This document shows, piece after piece, positions 3,136 to 37,288 of a stretch of 40,630 nt of DNA. Position numbers and translations under genes: made by a program. Within the stretch, counting starts at the first letter, position 1; every line of letters starts with the position of its first letter. The notes beneath the pieces are model-generated. The model made no database searches. It saw only the letters and a list, made by a program, of their open reading frames with translations, and was not told where the DNA came from. This DNA comes from a virus: positions 1 to 40,630 of IMG/VR virus record IMGVR_UViG_3300023272_000006; one strand, given 5' to 3'.

Positions 3136-3208
3136 GCGGACGAAGCCAGACGGATAAGGCACGGGGCTCATAATCCCGTATTCGCGTGTTCGATTCACGC
3201 CGTCCCCA
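3136..3208 (+). tRNA. tRNA-Met (CAT)
   Basis: Full cloverleaf: acceptor 3136-3142 with 3201-3207, D stem GCC/GGC, anticodon stem CGGGG/TCCCG, loop CTCATAA with anticodon CAT at 3169-3171, and T arm GCGTG/CACGC with loop TTCGATT. The second acceptor pair is a C-C mismatch. G1:C72 is paired, so this is not a standard initiator. It could be elongator Met or a lysidine-modified Ile tRNA. CCA is not encoded. Confidence 0.85.
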
Positions 3209-3210
3209 CT

Positions 3211-3283
3211 TTGTGAGTAGCTTAACGGTAAGAGCGCTGGGATGTGGCCCCGGTGTGTGCGGGTTCGACTCCCGTCTCACAAG
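3211..3283 (+). tRNA. tRNA-His (GTG)
   Basis: Acceptor TTGTGAG (3211-3217) pairs with CTCACAA (3276-3282). D arm GCTT/GAGC, anticodon stem CTGGG/CCCGG with loop ATGTGGC and anticodon GTG at 3244-3246, T arm GCGGG/CCCGT with loop TTCGACT. The usual His identity pair G-1:C73 is absent: the bases are T (3210) and G (3283). Confidence 0.85.
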
Positions 3284-3383
3284 CGAGTTGTCAGTGCATA
3301 CGTTAAACTGTCCGGAAGTGGCCAACCCGATAGACATACGCAGAAACGCGCAATCTGCTATAGGTGTCAGCGGCTAACGCAAA

Positions 3384-3454
3384 TGCCCATTCGTTCAATG
3401 GCAGGACGCCTGGCTCTGATCCAGGTAATCTAGGTTCGAGTCCTGGGTGGGTAG
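3384..3454 (+). tRNA. tRNA-Gln (CTG)
   Basis: Acceptor TGCCCAT (3384-3390) pairs with GTGGGTA (3447-3453). Anticodon stem CCTGG/CCAGG with loop CTCTGAT gives anticodon CTG at 3416-3418. The T loop is TTCGAGT. The weak T1:A72 first pair fits Gln tRNAs. Mycobacteriophage L5 carries tRNAs for Asn, Trp and Gln, all of which occur here too. Confidence 0.9.
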
Positions 3455-3457
3455 CTT

Positions 3458-3492
3458 GTTCAATTTAGAGGTGTGTTCACTCTGATTGAACA
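3458..3492 (+). repeat. Stem-loop in a tRNA spacer
   Basis: TGTTCAAT at 3458-3465 pairs with ATTGAACA at the right arm, and an inner AGAG/CTCT pairing extends the hairpin. It lies between tRNA-Gln and tRNA-Asn. It could be a processing signal for the tRNA transcript; no function is shown. Confidence 0.6.
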
Positions 3493-3510
3493 TATGGTGA
3501 GTTTGAACAT

Positions 3511-3581
3511 TCTCGTATAGCTCAAGGGCAGAGCAGCCGACTGTTAATCGGCGTATCTTGGTTCGAATCCAGGTATGAGAG
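3511..3581 (+). tRNA. tRNA-Asn (GTT)
   Basis: Acceptor TCTCGTA (3511-3517) pairs with TATGAGA (3574-3580). D arm GCTC/GAGC, anticodon stem GCCGA/TCGGC with loop CTGTTAA and anticodon GTT at 3543-3545, T loop TTCGAAT, discriminator G. CCA is not encoded. Confidence 0.92.
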
Positions 3582-3583
3582 CG

Positions 3584-3620
3584 GGAACCTTAAACCGGGC
3601 CTAGTGCACTAGGTGGTTCC
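3584..3620 (+). repeat. Nested inverted repeat between tRNA-Asn and tRNA-Trp
   Basis: An outer pair GGAACC (3584-3589) / GGTTCC (3615-3620) encloses a perfect 14-bp palindrome, CCTAGTGCACTAGG (3600-3613). The structure fills nearly the whole spacer. A role in tRNA processing is a guess. Confidence 0.65.
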
Positions 3621-3623
3621 AAA

Positions 3624-3695
3624 GGGGAGTTAGTTTAGTTGGCAAAATGGCGGTCTCCAAAACCGCAGTCTCAGGTTCGAAGCCTGGACGCCCCG
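3624..3695 (+). tRNA. tRNA-Trp (CCA)
   Basis: Acceptor GGGGAGT (3624-3630) pairs with ACGCCCC (3688-3694) apart from one A-G mismatch. Anticodon stem GCGGT/ACCGC with loop CTCCAAA gives anticodon CCA at 3657-3659. T loop TTCGAAG, discriminator G. Confidence 0.9.
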
Positions 3696-3891
3696 CATGT
3701 TTTCATTTGTGATTTCTTGTAGTGTATGCGGAGGTACTCATGAGTACCCCGAGTGTTTGATTCCGCCCGAGAAGTAACGCACAGAAGGGATTGTCTGTTG
3801 TCCTACCACGACTAGTGGGGCTACAGGAGGCAAGCCCCTCAAACTTTCGGTTATGCCGAACGTAAAGGAACCTGTTTCTCAGGTTCCGTAT
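3696..3891 (+). other. Long tRNA spacer with palindromes
   Basis: No gene or further tRNA could be supported in these 196 bases. It contains a perfect 16-bp palindrome GGTACTCATGAGTACC (3733-3748), a GGGGCT/AGCCCC pair around 3817-3838, a TTCGG/CCGAA hairpin near 3846-3860, and an 8-bp perfect hairpin GGAACCTG/CAGGTTCC with loop TTTCT (3867-3887) just before tRNA-Pro. The spacing suggests a remnant of lost tRNAs or structured processing signals. Confidence 0.5.
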
Positions 3892-3964
3892 CTGGTTATA
3901 GCTCAATTGGTAGAGTACCGCATTTGGGGTGCGGGAGTTGCAGGTTCGAGTCCTGCTAATCAGA
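3892..3964 (+). tRNA. tRNA-Pro (TGG)
   Basis: Acceptor CTGGTTA (3892-3898) pairs with TAATCAG (3957-3963). D arm GCTC/GAGT, anticodon stem CCGCA/TGCGG with loop TTTGGGG and anticodon TGG, T arm GCAGG/CCTGC with loop TTCGAGT, discriminator A. CCA is not encoded. Confidence 0.92.
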
Positions 3965-4000
3965 CGAAGGCGAGGGCAGTGCACAAGTCCTCGTCGGCCC

Positions 4001-4072
4001 GCCCTTTTAGCTCAGTGGGAGAGCACCGCCTTTACACGGCGTAGGCCGGGGGTTCGAATCCCTCAGAGGGTA
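4001..4072 (+). tRNA. tRNA-Val (TAC)
   Basis: Acceptor GCCCTTT (4001-4007) pairs with AGAGGGT (4065-4071), including two G-T pairs. D arm GCTC/GAGC, anticodon loop TTTACAC with anticodon TAC, T loop TTCGAAT, discriminator A. The outermost anticodon-stem pair is mismatched. The 3' acceptor strand contains GAGGG, which may also serve as the ribosome site for the small gene that follows. Confidence 0.88.
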
Positions 4073-4073
4073 C

Positions 4074-9798: not shown

Positions 9799-10794
9799 AT
9801 GGCAATGATTAACGAGCTTCAGCCGAATACTACGAACAACCACCAGGGGCGTCTTGCTTACGTTCCTGATGACCTGTTCCCTAAGACTATTACGTCTGAC
9901 CTTCTGACGAAGGCCCAGGAACAGTCTCTGGTACTCCGACTGGGTCAGCAGATTCCGGTTTCGTTTGGTGAGACGGTTATTCCGGTCCAGACCAAGCGTC
10001 CCGAGGTTGGCCAGGTAGGTACTGGTAAGACCAACGCACTGCGTGAGGGTGGGACCAAGCCACTGACTGGTGTTGCGTGGGACAGCAAGTCCATGCAGCC
10101 AATCAAGCTGGCGGGTATCATCACGGTATCCGAGGAGTTTGCGCGTACCAACCCACAGGGTTTCTACTCCAAGCTTCAGTCTGACCTGGCTTTCGCTATT
10201 GGTCGTGGTCTTGACCTGGCGGTCTTCCACGGTAAGCAGCCTCTCACGGGTGGTGCGCTTGCTGGTATTGACGCGTCGGACGTTCTGAACAACACCACGA
10301 ACGTGGTAAACACGGACACCATCAACAACAACAACCTGTACGATGAGCTGATCACGGCTTATGACATGGTTGCTGCGGATCACGACTTCACTGGTTGGGC
10401 TGCGGACACGCGTTACCGTTCGCGTCTGATTCGTGAGGGTGCGGAGCGTGATGTCAACGGGAACCTTGTGAACCCAGCGGGCATCAACTTCACCTCTCAG
10501 GTGGGTAACATCCTGGGCTTCCCGGTCCAGTATGGTAAGGGTGTCGTGGGTGACCTTGGTGCGGCTACGGCCACTTCCACTAAGATCATCGGTGGTGACT
10601 TCTCCCAGCTCATGTGGGGTTTCGCTGACAACATTCGGTACAAGGTATCGGACCAGGCGACCCTGACTGATGGTACGAACACCATCTCCATGTGGCAGAC
10701 CAACCAGGTTGCGATCCTCGTTGAGGTAACCTTCGGTTGGATCGTTGCGGACCTGGACGCGTTCGTTAAGATCACGAACCCATCGGGTAGCTAA
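9799..10794 (+). CDS. Major capsid protein (HK97 fold)
   Basis: A protein of 331 residues. The pattern matches HK97-fold actinophage capsid proteins: an N-terminal arm, an E-loop region around VIPVQTKRPEVGQVGTG, spine helix segments (EEFARTNPQGFYSKLQSDLA; GRGLDLAVFHG), and an A domain ending with a beta strand that includes IVADLDAFVKI. Codon use is strongly biased to C/G-ending codons and GGT, as expected for the most expressed virion gene. AAGGA lies 8 bases before the ATG. A glycosyltransferase gene follows directly, so the capsid is a candidate for glycosylation. Confidence 0.93.
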   Translation: MAMINELQPNTTNNHQGRLAYVPDDLFPKTITSDLLTKAQEQSLVLRLGQQIPVSFGETVIPVQTKRPEVGQVGTGKTNALREGGTKPLTGVAWDSKSMQPIKLAGIITVSEEFARTNPQGFYSKLQSDLAFAIGRGLDLAVFHGKQPLTGGALAGIDASDVLNNTTNVVNTDTINNNNLYDELITAYDMVAADHDFTGWAADTRYRSRLIREGAERDVNGNLVNPAGINFTSQVGNILGFPVQYGKGVVGDLGAATATSTKIIGGDFSQLMWGFADNIRYKVSDQATLTDGTNTISMWQTNQVAILVEVTFGWIVADLDAFVKITNPSGS

Positions 10795-10872: not shown

Positions 10873-11844
10873 ATGAAGGTAGCAATCTTCGTCCACTACT
10901 ACGTTCCCTACAGGAACGCCGGTTCTGAGACGATGCTCCATGTAATGTGCAAAGCACTCAAGGACAAAGGCCATGAGGTAATCGTGTTCGCCACGGTTCT
11001 CCCAGAGGCTCCCGAGTTCTATGAGTACGAAGGCATCCCGATTTATGTGACCAACGTGGTCTACGGCAAGCAGATGATCGAGTCCTGGAGGCCCGACGTC
11101 ATTGTCTCCCACCATGATAACACAGACAGGGCTGCTCGTATTTCAAACCGGAAGGGAATTCCGTTCGCCTTCCTGATGCACAATGATTTCGACCAGACAG
11201 TACAAAAGCTGGACTACAATCCTGATCTGGTTGTGTTCAACACTGATTGGATGGCCTCCAAGTTCAAGGACAAGACATCTAACTTCATGGTTATGCATCC
11301 ACCCATCCTGACCGACCAACATCGAACCACTCCAGGAGAGTGTGTCACCTTGGTCAACCTGTCAGAGAACAAGGGTGCCAATCTGTTCTACAAGCTCGCA
11401 GAGCGAATGCCAGACATTCAGTTTCTGGGGGTGGAGGGTGGTCACGGGCCACAGATCATCAGGTATGATCTTCCCAATGTGACGATCCAGATGCAAACCG
11501 ACAAGATGAAGCAGGATGTGTGGTCTAGGACCAAGATTCTTCTGATGCCATCTGTCTACGAGTCTTATGGTATGGCCGGAGTAGAAGCGCTAGCTTCGGG
11601 TATCCCTGTATTGGCTCACCCCACACCGGGACTAATCGAGTCCCAAGGTCCATTCGGACATTTCATTGACCGTGATGATGTGGATCAGTATTGCAATGTG
11701 ATCCGCAAGTACTACGAGTCAGATATTTCATACAAAGCCGCTTCTGGACTAGCCCTAAGGCGGTCCGCCGAACTAGACCCAACGCCTGAGTTGGCCCAGT
11801 GGGTCCAAAAGATTGAGGAGTTGGGAAATGCCAGGATTAGTTAA
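10873..11844 (+). CDS. GT4-type (GT-B fold) glycosyltransferase
   Basis: A protein of 323 residues. The N-terminus MKVAIFVHYYVPYRNAGSE is the usual GT4 start (donor/acceptor loop after strand 1), with SHHD and NTDWM segments in the first domain. The second domain has SENKGANLF (nucleotide-sugar side), LLMPSVYESYGMAGVEALAS with the E-x7-E motif of retaining GT4 enzymes, and GIPVLAHPTPGL. It transfers a sugar from a nucleotide donor. Placed between the capsid and connector genes, it probably modifies a virion protein; the acceptor is not known. AGGGA precedes the start by 7 bases. Confidence 0.85.
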   Translation: MKVAIFVHYYVPYRNAGSETMLHVMCKALKDKGHEVIVFATVLPEAPEFYEYEGIPIYVTNVVYGKQMIESWRPDVIVSHHDNTDRAARISNRKGIPFAFLMHNDFDQTVQKLDYNPDLVVFNTDWMASKFKDKTSNFMVMHPPILTDQHRTTPGECVTLVNLSENKGANLFYKLAERMPDIQFLGVEGGHGPQIIRYDLPNVTIQMQTDKMKQDVWSRTKILLMPSVYESYGMAGVEALASGIPVLAHPTPGLIESQGPFGHFIDRDDVDQYCNVIRKYYESDISYKAASGLALRRSAELDPTPELAQWVQKIEELGNARIS

Positions 11845-12007
11845 ACTCATTGGGGTTCACGGCACCGTCGTGTTCGCCACCCCTGAGAAGGCTGAGAGGC
11901 TCAAGAGGATCCAGGGGTATGTAGAGTACCAGGAGCCCTCTGAAAGTCCCTCAGAAGACGTCTCAGAGCCAGTAAAGCCCAAGCGTGGCCGACCGAAGAA
12001 GGTATAA
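11828..12007 (+). CDS. Small head-region protein with AT-hook-like tail
   Basis: A protein of 59 residues. An N-terminal beta segment (LVKLIGVHGTVVFATPEKAERL) is followed by an acidic Ser/Glu linker and the basic tail KPKRGRPKKV, which contains an RGRP AT-hook-like motif. Similar small proteins follow the capsid gene in many actinophages and are uncharacterised; binding to packaged DNA or to the head interior is possible. ATG 11828 overlaps the glycosyltransferase end by 17 bases and has GAGGAG 7 bases upstream (11815-11820), which decides the start. Confidence 0.7.
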   Translation: MPGLVKLIGVHGTVVFATPEKAERLKRIQGYVEYQEPSESPSEDVSEPVKPKRGRPKKV

Positions 12008-12226
12008 GTGAAGACTGGACCCATCAAGGGTTACCGTGATCTGTCTCCAGCCGAGATTGATCTCATGAACAAGCTCAAGGATGTCGCCGTAGAAGTCGGC
12101 AATTGGGTTGATATCGTTCTGGACGATCCTGACACCGATAAGCGGTGGGCTAACATCGCCAAGACTGATCTTCAGAAGGGGTTCATGTCGCTGATTCGTG
12201 CAGTGGCACGCCCCGAAACGTTCTAA
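12008..12226 (+). CDS. Acb2/Tad1-hairpin-like protein, candidate anti-CBASS nucleotide sponge
   Basis: A protein of 72 residues predicted as two helices. It begins MKTGPIKGYRDLSPAEIDLM and ends KRWANIAKTDLQKGFMSLIR plus a short tail. This pattern (GYR-L-AEI ... RW-AI--T-LQ-GFM-L-RA-A-P) is the one I know from the Acb2/Tad1 hairpin family, whose phage members sequester cyclic di- and trinucleotides of CBASS and related defences. From memory, Acb2 uses Tyr11 and Lys26; Tyr9 and Lys24 here have the same 15-residue spacing. The GTG start abuts the preceding stop codon. The homologues I recall also sit in the structural operon. Sequestration is inferred; an alternative is a purely structural head protein. 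Confidence 0.6.
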   Translation: MKTGPIKGYRDLSPAEIDLMNKLKDVAVEVGNWVDIVLDDPDTDKRWANIAKTDLQKGFMSLIRAVARPETF

Positions 12227-12236
12227 GGAGTTCTGA

Positions 12237-12728
12237 ATGGCCTATGCAACTGTTGCAGACGTAGAAGCAAGGCTGGGTAGGTCACTCGACACGTCCGAAC
12301 AGACCATCGTTAACACCCGGCTTAATGACGTAGAACTTCTGATTCGAAACAAGATTCCTGACCTTGATACTAAGATCTCGGCAGGAACAATCGATGTAGA
12401 AGCACTGATCATGATTGAGTCGGAGAGTGTTCTCCGGTTGGTACGAAACCCTGACGGCTACACGGCAGAGACTGATGGTAACTACTCCTATCAGATTTCT
12501 GTCAAGGTTGCATCAGGTCGGTTGGACATCCTCCCCGAAGAGTGGGCGTTGCTTGGGTTCCGAAGTGGTGCATTCACCATTCGGCCAGACCTCAGCCCTT
12601 ACTACACTAACTGTGGTTACCCTTGGGAGAACGTGAACCGCCCTTTTGACGAGTTCCCGGCATGGGATAGGACTGCTCACCCTGCTTGGTGTGAGTTCGT
12701 GACGGGAGATATCAAGTGTCCTTGCTAG
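12237..12728 (+). CDS. Head-to-tail adaptor
   Basis: A protein of 163 residues. The start, AYATVADVEARLGRSL, and the following helix (VNTRLNDVELLIRNKIPDL) are typical of gp6/Gp19-like adaptor proteins that dock below the portal. The C-terminus contains aromatic turns and several cysteines (CGYPW, WCEF, CPC). AAGGAG lies 6 bases before the ATG. Its end overlaps the next gene by 13 bases. Confidence 0.8.
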   Translation: MAYATVADVEARLGRSLDTSEQTIVNTRLNDVELLIRNKIPDLDTKISAGTIDVEALIMIESESVLRLVRNPDGYTAETDGNYSYQISVKVASGRLDILPEEWALLGFRSGAFTIRPDLSPYYTNCGYPWENVNRPFDEFPAWDRTAHPAWCEFVTGDIKCPC

Positions 12729-13075
12729 ACAGGGGTCGAGAGACCGTAACGGTATACCCCGAAGAGGTGTACATAGACCCAGATGGTAACGAACTCCGTA
12801 GGCCACAAGCCACGGGTATCACTGTCACAAATGCAGTAGTGCAATTGTTGGCTCAGTCGGGTACTTCGTCCAGGCGTGCCGAACAGGATAACGAAGGACA
12901 GGAAACTGAAGAGGTATATCGACTGCGCTTGCCTAGGTCTTATGCAGGTCCGATCATCGGAGCCCACGGACGAGTGGTCTGGCGCGGTCTGTCATGGTCG
13001 GTAATCGGCAAGGAACGTAGGTACAACGGTTCCTCCAGGACTAACCACATTGATTACACCCTGCGGAGGAACTAA
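12716..13075 (+). CDS. Head-to-tail stopper
   Basis: A protein of 119 residues. It is beta-rich: VTVYPEEVYIDPDGNELRRP at the N-terminus, a middle strand EEVYRLRLP, then GRVVWRGLSWSVIGKERRYNG, which is characteristic of actinophage stopper proteins (SPP1 gp16 type). These seal the connector after packaging. The start is GTG 12716, overlapping the adaptor; TTG 12722 is an alternative. The stop overlaps the next ATG by one base. Confidence 0.75.
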   Translation: MSLLDRGRETVTVYPEEVYIDPDGNELRRPQATGITVTNAVVQLLAQSGTSSRRAEQDNEGQETEEVYRLRLPRSYAGPIIGAHGRVVWRGLSWSVIGKERRYNGSSRTNHIDYTLRRN

Positions 13076-13404
13076 TGGCCAACAAGGTTCAGATTACCAC
13101 TAGTCAGCTCGAATTCAACAAGAAGCTTTCCAAGCATGATGATGTACAGGACGCCTTGAAGGGCGTTGCTCGTAAGGCTTACGCCTCAGCTTCGGGTAGG
13201 CTTGCTGCTCACCGTAAGACTGGGTCTCACTCGATTGAGATCGAGCGAATCAAGAATGTCAAGTATGGCCACATTGACTGGTATGTGTCGATGGTTGGTC
13301 CTGCTGCGGTATCCGTGGAATACGGTCACTGGAGTCCTAACCACAACCGCTATGTCCAGGGTTTGTACATCATGACAAATGCTCTCCTTGGTGCGAGGCT
13401 CTAA
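13075..13404 (+). CDS. Connector / tail-completion-like protein
   Basis: A protein of 109 residues. The C-terminal phrase VEYGHWSPNHNRYVQGLYIM is the hallmark of a small protein found between stopper and tail terminator in L5-like phages (often grouped with HK97 gp10-like or DUF5403 proteins). The N-terminal half is helical and basic. It probably helps join head and tail; the precise structural role is not known. It overlaps both neighbours by one base, showing translational coupling. Confidence 0.7.
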   Translation: MANKVQITTSQLEFNKKLSKHDDVQDALKGVARKAYASASGRLAAHRKTGSHSIEIERIKNVKYGHIDWYVSMVGPAAVSVEYGHWSPNHNRYVQGLYIMTNALLGARL

Positions 13405-13820
13405 TGCCACCTATCGCACGTAAGATACCACGTATTCAGGCTGTTGTTCTTCCTCTACTCAAGGCGAGGTTGGACCCATCCATTAGTGTTCGGTCTTGGG
13501 GTGCGGATGTACTCGACAGGACTTTCCCTTATGTAATGATTCGAAGGTTGGGAGGGCTTCCAGTTGACGTCGATTTTCTTGACCGACCAGTTATTGAGAT
13601 GACCGCGTACGGCAGTGAGAGTCTTGCTGCCACAGAAGATTTGTATCTGGACTGCCGTCAAATCCTTTGGGATGCGTGGAAGAGCCAGACTGTAATTCCG
13701 GGTGAGGGTTACATTCACTCGTATTTTGAAACCCTGGGTCCAACCCAGTTCGACTCACCATGGGATGACACGTGGCGAATCCAGGGACTGATCCAGCTGG
13801 GCCTTCGTCCGGCGAATTAA
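13404..13820 (+). CDS. Tail terminator
   Basis: A protein of 138 residues. Features match siphophage tail terminators (lambda gpU / SPP1 gp17 type): an N-terminal helix IQAVVLPLLKARLDP, strand FPYVMIRRLGG, IEMTAYGSESLAATEDLYLDC leading into a long helix, and a last strand IQGLIQLGLRP. It caps the tail tube and contacts the connector. Position directly before the major tail gene supports the call. Confidence 0.82.
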   Translation: MPPIARKIPRIQAVVLPLLKARLDPSISVRSWGADVLDRTFPYVMIRRLGGLPVDVDFLDRPVIEMTAYGSESLAATEDLYLDCRQILWDAWKSQTVIPGEGYIHSYFETLGPTQFDSPWDDTWRIQGLIQLGLRPAN

Positions 13821-36100: not shown

Positions 36101-36605
36101 CTTCATCCCCGTTCTCGATAACATCCGCATCTAGCAGTGCTGCTGCAATACGAATGAGTCGAACCCTCAGCATCACAAAGTAATTGATGCCATCCAGGAT
36201 CTCATCGTCGGCTTCCTTGAAGAGACGGAGCAGTGGGTATTCCTCGAACTTCTGATACCCCGGAAAGGCATACTGCTCGTGACCTATACCCTTGATACGT
36301 GCAGTCGCATCAACCACAGTATCGGAAACTGCACCAACCAAGTCCTCGGAACTCCATCCGAAGGGCTTCATGATCTTCTCAAGGTTGGTGGTGTTTACCG
36401 GATCACCATCGTCATCAACCTCGGTGATATGAACCGCTGCTACCTCCTGCATGTTGAACAGGGGTTCAATCTCACCTTCTTCAAACCCGAAGGTCTTGTC
36501 TCCAATCTCCACGAGGTAGAGACCGAATTCCCTGCTCTTGACAATGCCAACCTTGTTGAGGTTGTTACCAGCCTTAATCAGGACGGGACGTCCGACCAGA
36601 TTCAT
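36081..36605 (-). CDS. SH3/KOW-like domain fused to a helical domain
   Basis: A protein of 174 residues. The first 50 residues form a barrel (NLVGRPVLIKAGNNLNKVG, FGFEEGEIEPLF). The rest is helical and ends with KEADDEILDGINYFVMLRVR, an E-x2-E/D ... D-x-N-Y pattern reminiscent of MazG-like nucleotide pyrophosphatases, then an acidic tail. AAGGAG lies 6 bases before ATG 36605. It overlaps primase by 4 bases and the exonuclease by 20. The function is unproven. Confidence 0.55.
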   Translation of the reverse strand: MNLVGRPVLIKAGNNLNKVGIVKSREFGLYLVEIGDKTFGFEEGEIEPLFNMQEVAAVHITEVDDDGDPVNTTNLEKIMKPFGWSSEDLVGAVSDTVVDATARIKGIGHEQYAFPGYQKFEEYPLLRLFKEADDEILDGINYFVMLRVRLIRIAAALLDADVIENGDEDEDPDA

Positions 36606-37288
36606 GGCATCTCCTTCCCGATTGCTTTCCAAAGTGCTTGCTCTCCTTGTTCCATGTAAACCGAGTTCACATCGCCACCTGGCATGGGGATTTGCTTGAA
36701 CTGAACGCCACGGAGGTAAGGGTCAGAGCCAACCTTGTCTGCCATGTCCTTACCTTGTCCCTTGACATCATCATCCACACAGAAGTAGATCGTGGCATAC
36801 CCCGAGAAAATTCTCCCGAAGTGCTTTGCCCAGGCTTCTGTACCTGGGATGCCAATGGCATCCATACCGATCACTTCCCATGTCGCAGCATCCAACTCAC
36901 CTTCACACATCACGATCTCATCGTGAGACCTAATGATTGCATTGGTGTTGTAGAGATGAATGCCACCACCCGTTTGGGCTGTGTATTTGCCCAGCTTAGG
37001 GTGAGCTTCCTTGCAGTCGTGGTTCTCGATACACCTGAACTTGATGTTGATTACCGAGATACCACCAACCGGACTGGGTCGGAGATAAGGGATCGCCAAC
37101 CTCCCCCGCTGGTATTCATGCCCAGGCAAGGGGTCTGCTACATACCCAAACCCCAATGCATCTGCCCTAGGACCAACGAGTCCCCTTTTTGCTAGGTACT
37201 CTTCGGCCGGACTTCCGTCCAGGCTTTGATTGTATCGGCGTGAAGCTTCTACCAGAAATCTCTTCTGCATATCTGACAGCTTCTGCAA
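36602..37288 (-). CDS. DNA primase, Toprim (catalytic) part
   Basis: A protein of 228 residues. Toprim motifs are clear: IVMCEGELDAATWEV (catalytic Glu), IGIPGTEAW and IYFCVDDDVKGQGKD. The N-terminal region (AEEYLAKRGL, LGFGYVADP, GRLAIPYL) matches the DnaG-type RNA polymerase core. The zinc domain is on a separate overlapping gene. TTG 37288 has AAGGAG 7 bases upstream, so it has its own start. It makes RNA primers with the helicase encoded at the right edge. Confidence 0.88.
   Translation of the reverse strand: MQKLSDMQKRFLVEASRRYNQSLDGSPAEEYLAKRGLVGPRADALGFGYVADPLPGHEYQRGRLAIPYLRPSPVGGISVINIKFRCIENHDCKEAHPKLGKYTAQTGGGIHLYNTNAIIRSHDEIVMCEGELDAATWEVIGMDAIGIPGTEAWAKHFGRIFSGYATIYFCVDDDVKGQGKDMADKVGSDPYLRGVQFKQIPMPGGDVNSVYMEQGEQALWKAIGKEMP

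Follow-up and report, generated by a model that had tools for sequence, protein, structure and literature searches.

The DNA analysed here (the window, 40,630 bases) is the complete record of an uncultivated IMG/VR actinophage with a cluster-A-like architecture, in which the terminase, portal, capsid and neck genes are read rightward and those for DNA polymerase A, a B12-dependent ribonucleotide reductase (RNR) and a DnaB-like helicase are read leftward (Table 1). In cluster A phages the left arm is the late arm. The preliminary description had placed a small gene, here termed acb2, within the head-tail operon, and the open reading frame is real and in that setting, as shown by the PF05065 capsid protein, adaptor Ad1, head closure protein Hc1, Neck1 and tail terminator found around it. 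About 1,000 phages of Mycobacterium, Rhodococcus and Gordonia have a related adaptor. The acb2 gene is present in a single copy in the whole record, begins with a GTG codon that directly abuts the stop codon (TAA) of the upstream ORF, and ends 10 nt before the start of the adaptor gene. Motifs similar to its AGAAGG (AAGAAGG or AGGAAGG) precede acb2 in several close relatives. Comparison of the window gene with those of loci L002-L010 gave a dN of ~0.03-0.07 with a high, near-saturated dS, indicating strong purifying selection. Promoter-like matches around acb2 were at chance level only, and the simplest view is therefore that the gene belongs to the late operon; placed in the rightward structural arm and lacking an obvious separate promoter, it would be expected to be expressed late. 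Elsewhere in the window, seven tRNA genes are clustered 5' of the terminase gene (3136-4073, + strand), and a region at 36602-37288 (- strand), with a weak PADLOC match (8e-7) to an RT-associated DnaG-like model, is probably a phage primase domain.

Table 1. Features at and around the acb2 locus of the window.
Feature	Position	Strand	Evidence or remark
Major capsid protein (PF05065)	9799..10794	+	~61% identical to Fromanvirus mycobacteriophage capsids
GT4-like glycosyltransferase (phrog_26352)	10873..11844	+	Part of the capsid-adaptor insert of the clade
Small ORF, 59 aa from ATG	11828..12007	+	Basic C-terminus KRGRPKK; directly 5' of acb2
AGAAGG, Shine-Dalgarno-like	11997..12002	+	Sequence; 5 nt 5' of the acb2 GTG
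acb2-like gene, 72 aa, PF24729 hairpin	12008..12226	+	Profile, fold, pocket residues Y9, K24, R64 (with T53)
Head-tail adaptor Ad1 (PF09355, phrog_137)	12237..12728	+	First gene 3' of acb2
Head closure Hc1, Neck1 (DUF5403), tail terminator	12716..13820	+	Structural operon continues

The 72-residue protein had been assigned to the Acb2/Tad1 hairpin family from its sequence pattern, and this assignment is borne out by concordant evidence from profile, predicted fold and ligand residues. The Pfam profile PF24729 (Acb2/Tad1 hairpin) matches the protein at 4.3e-16 over its full length (positions 1-58 of 58) with a score of 59.3 bits, far beyond chance and well above the curated cut-off of 27 bits, and the PHROGs family phrog_717, from which homologues of T4 Vs.4 have been drawn (PMC10097602), matches it at 3.3e-18. 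In searches of the PDB, the single sequence retrieved p26/Acb2 at 3e-12 and Vs.4 at 0.04, and a 38-sequence family profile used as the query retrieved them at 3.6e-28 and 7.7e-8, respectively. An NCBIfam search with the 72-residue protein gave one weak, irrelevant match only, and PADLOC gave no match for the Acb2-like protein. We regard membership of the window protein in the Acb2 family (PF24729/phrog_717) as confirmed. Identity with Tad1 itself was considered and rejected, as the N-terminal beta domain of Tad1 is absent from a protein of 72 residues with only ~12 of them ahead of the first helix.

The structure predicted by AlphaFold2 from 48 window and locus sequences contains the helical hairpin expected of the family, with a short N-terminal segment followed by two long antiparallel helices (residues 14-39 and 45-67; mean pLDDT 89.9), as in p26 and Vs.4. 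When the predicted fold was compared with the PDB using Foldseek, the top nine matches were all to Acb2 (8h2x, 8h2j) or Vs.4 (7uq2) with a probability of 1.00, with E = 1.6e-4 for Acb2 p26, and the next match, an unrelated one, had an E value of 1.7. The VIA Z scores were 8.7 to 8h2j, 8.5 to 7uq2 and 7.1 to the next fold, a modest value for a two-helix protein and a modest gap of the kind expected for a helical hairpin. The hairpin is ~19 residues shorter than that of p26, where the extra residues are found at the tip, but it has the same length as in most of the relatives found. A hexamer with so short a hairpin is predicted by analogy with p26 and Vs.4 and is not assured, and our literature search found no paper testing an Acb2 member with a hairpin this short.

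The residues that would form the ligand pocket were mapped by profile alignment using the numbering of Vs.4, in which cGAMP is held by Y8, H11, K23, R79 and F82, hexamer contacts are made by L29, A66, A73 and A77, and T12 is a helix cap (PMC10097602). The T68M change in Vs.4 reduces affinity and Y8A abolishes the effect (PMC12657230). The five cGAMP contacts correspond to Y9, L12, K24, R64 and A67 of the window protein, the four hexamer contacts to V30, A51, G58 and L62, and T12 and T68 to S13 and T53. Two of the contacts, H11 and F82, therefore differ in the window protein, and p26 likewise has L and A at these positions. The small hexamer-interface residues are kept in the alignment. Tyr9 and Lys24 had been singled out in the preliminary description as a ligand-binding pair with the spacing seen in Acb2; alignment with p26, by which that spacing was checked, as well as with Y8 and K23 of Vs.4, upholds this, and both residues, together with R64, are invariant among 48 aligned relatives.

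These residues bear on what the protein might bind. An Acb2-family sponge could serve mainly against some other cyclic-nucleotide signal or defence of the host, such as a Thoeris-type signal or the cyclic oligoadenylate of type III CRISPR systems, given that the ligand range differs among sponges and that the ligands of Tad1, whose C-terminal helices fall in the same Pfam domain as Acb2, include gcADPR in addition to cyclic di- and trinucleotides (PMC12043709). We consider such a principal target improbable, however, since the pocket residues of the window protein match those of the cGAMP-binding Acb2 and Vs.4 and the N-terminal domain of Tad1 is lacking.

The position of acb2 is conserved in the close relatives of the phage. 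It occupies the capsid-adaptor slot in every one of the 12 contigs whose adaptors share at least 67% identity with that of the window, and in these the gene order, as far as the contigs reach, is capsid, glycosyltransferase, small ORF (sometimes diverged), acb2 and adaptor. This constancy, together with the tight spacing between acb2 and the adaptor gene, is what would be expected if the product used the Acb2 hairpin fold as a minor component of the virion or of head assembly, its place in the operon reflecting a function in the particle. Beyond the close relatives, however, a family member was found in none of 33 contigs whose adaptors are more divergent, several of which have little upstream sequence, nor in the comparable annotated operons of mycobacteriophages prophiBWHA-1 and Seanderson, although these contigs and operons do have the head-tail genes. 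In prophiBWHA-1 the adaptor gene directly follows that of the capsid, and in Seanderson one unrelated 78-residue ORF lies between the two. An obligatory virion component of cluster-A-like phages was rejected on the basis of these two operons and the 33 distant contigs. Furthermore, acb2 alleles turn over without a matching change in the virion genes. Loci L007 and L131 are 96% identical in the capsid, 88% in the glycosyltransferase and 80% in the adaptor but only 69% in Acb2, whereas L007 and the window are 81, 65 and 75% identical in the same three proteins and 90% in Acb2. Because the identity of Acb2 is out of step with that of the capsid and adaptor, acb2 must exchange independently of its neighbours. 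The glycosyltransferase always adjoins acb2 in this clade, its sole relative in the phage collection is in Streptomyces phage TurkishDelight, and it is a candidate for virion glycosylation.

Across the family as a whole, some relatives of acb2 adjoin portal, terminase, tape measure, sheath or tail genes and others adjoin genes for RNR, DNA polymerase, helicase, primase, topoisomerase or tRNAs. The largest same-strand neighbour at 40 IMG/VR loci was structural or for packaging in 18, for DNA or nucleotide metabolism in nine, other in two and of no named function in 11; large phage genes are often structural, and we take 18 of 40 as a plain count and claim no enrichment in structural operons. 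The structural label is scattered rather than clustered on the Acb2 tree, requiring 12 changes compared with a shuffled mean of 13.3 (123 of 500 shuffles were as low) on a tree with few columns and many open forks. The capsid-adaptor slot nevertheless recurs in JBD67 and RcapMu, and in a Psychrobacter prophage (L109, 4919-6650) a Phage_cap_E (PF03864) capsid gene, acb2 and a Mu gp36 adaptor gene are in direct succession, such that the slot is seen beside different capsid families, PF05065 in the window clade, PF03864 in L109 and the Mu-like capsids of JBD67 and RcapMu. An acb2 relative also comes right after the capsid gene in Leptolyngbya phage Lsp-JY19 and lies between the terminase and portal genes in an actinobacterial prophage of Kutzneria. 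PF24729 was above its cut-off in one of 396 sampled Actinomycetota genomes, the starting Kutzneria genome only, and BFVD contains PF24729-named proteins in Mycobacterium, Microbacterium and Streptomyces phages. In Rhizobium phage RHph_X2_26 (L182, 3432-4237) the acb2 relative comes after a gene annotated as encoding a TIR-domain protein, and the RcapMu44 product (L180, 3980-4270), which carries the 2011 annotation 'similar to cyclic-nucleotide binding domain', belongs to PF24729. The idea, raised in the preliminary description, that the family originated as a virion protein or also serves as one finds no support in its patchy presence, allele exchange and many unrelated slots, including those in replication and tRNA or accessory regions, and with the pocket residues invariant as well, a role of the window protein in the particle is highly improbable.

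The most likely reading of acb2 is as a mobile anti-defence gene whose product is no part of the virus particle. Specifically, we think it probable that it encodes a short-hairpin Acb2 sponge carried as an anti-CBASS cargo ('moron') gene of the late operon, for which we infer the ligand, the hexamer, the timing and the effect on immunity. The two-helix protein would, as judged from p26 and Vs.4, assemble as a hexamer able to bind the cyclic dinucleotides, and possibly also the cyclic trinucleotides, that CD-NTases produce; the sponge would thereby keep these signalling nucleotides from CBASS effectors and delay abortive death. Of 198 genomes sampled from the Actinomycetota, the phylum of Kutzneria, 16 encode CD-NTase (SMODS) proteins, and such signals and targets therefore exist in possible hosts. 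The gene was probably gained in the phage clade with, or next to, the glycosyltransferase gene at the capsid-adaptor junction, and its product would be made late, together with the capsid and neck proteins. Late production would fit the reports that capsid mutations help acb2-deleted Pseudomonas phages to escape CBASS (PMC10419184) and that Acb2 acts when prophages are induced (PMC12043709). A more speculative proposal, which we regard as unlikely, is that acb2 is found repeatedly at the capsid-adaptor junction of unrelated phages because co-production with the capsid matches the timing and amount of late CBASS triggering; if true, the recurrent slot beside capsid genes would connect the dose of the sponge with late expression and with the triggering of CBASS. 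The sponge reading would extend a verified class of phage immune-evasion proteins to a clade of uncultivated actinophages, and the placement data provide a comparative argument that acb2 is mobile cargo rather than a virion part.

Among the characterized members of the family, p26/Acb2 of Pseudomonas phages (PDB 8h2j, 8h2x, 8ixz) has the same fold, is 44% identical to the window protein over 71 residues (VIA) and has an identical pocket motif (IKGYRDLS...EID.MN..K and R...A.P..F). The sequence of p26 is also identical to that of PaP2 orf26, which comes last in a same-strand run of genes that includes DNA polymerase I and converges on a virion gene; unlike acb2 of the window, it is not within a head-tail operon. 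T4 Vs.4 (PDB 7uq2), which binds cGAMP as a hexamer (PMC10097602), has the Y, K, R and T positions and the small interface residues in common with the window protein, but its hairpin is longer and the two match well only by profile. In gene order the closest parallels are gp34 of JBD67 (Beetrevirus) and RcapMu44, both of which are PF24729 proteins whose genes sit between those for capsid and adaptor and are preceded by one small ORF, as in the window, although these are Mu-like phages of Proteobacteria with other capsid proteins and their Acb2 proteins are ~32% identical to that of the window. Putative Acb2 proteins have been reported in other actinophages, namely gp57 of Microbacterium phage Statler and the products of gene 101 of Mycobacterium phage Xandras and gene 102 of BigBubba (PMC13348362, PMC11953737). 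These phages belong to clusters EG and E and their gene numbers put acb2 away from the capsid-adaptor junction; in Statler, for example, the capsid protease is gp24 and the tail chaperones are gp35-36. Hence the Acb2 domain is already annotated in other actinophages and is unique neither to actinophages nor to the operon of the window; what is new is the short-hairpin member of the window clade and the finding that the capsid-adaptor slot recurs next to capsids of different families.
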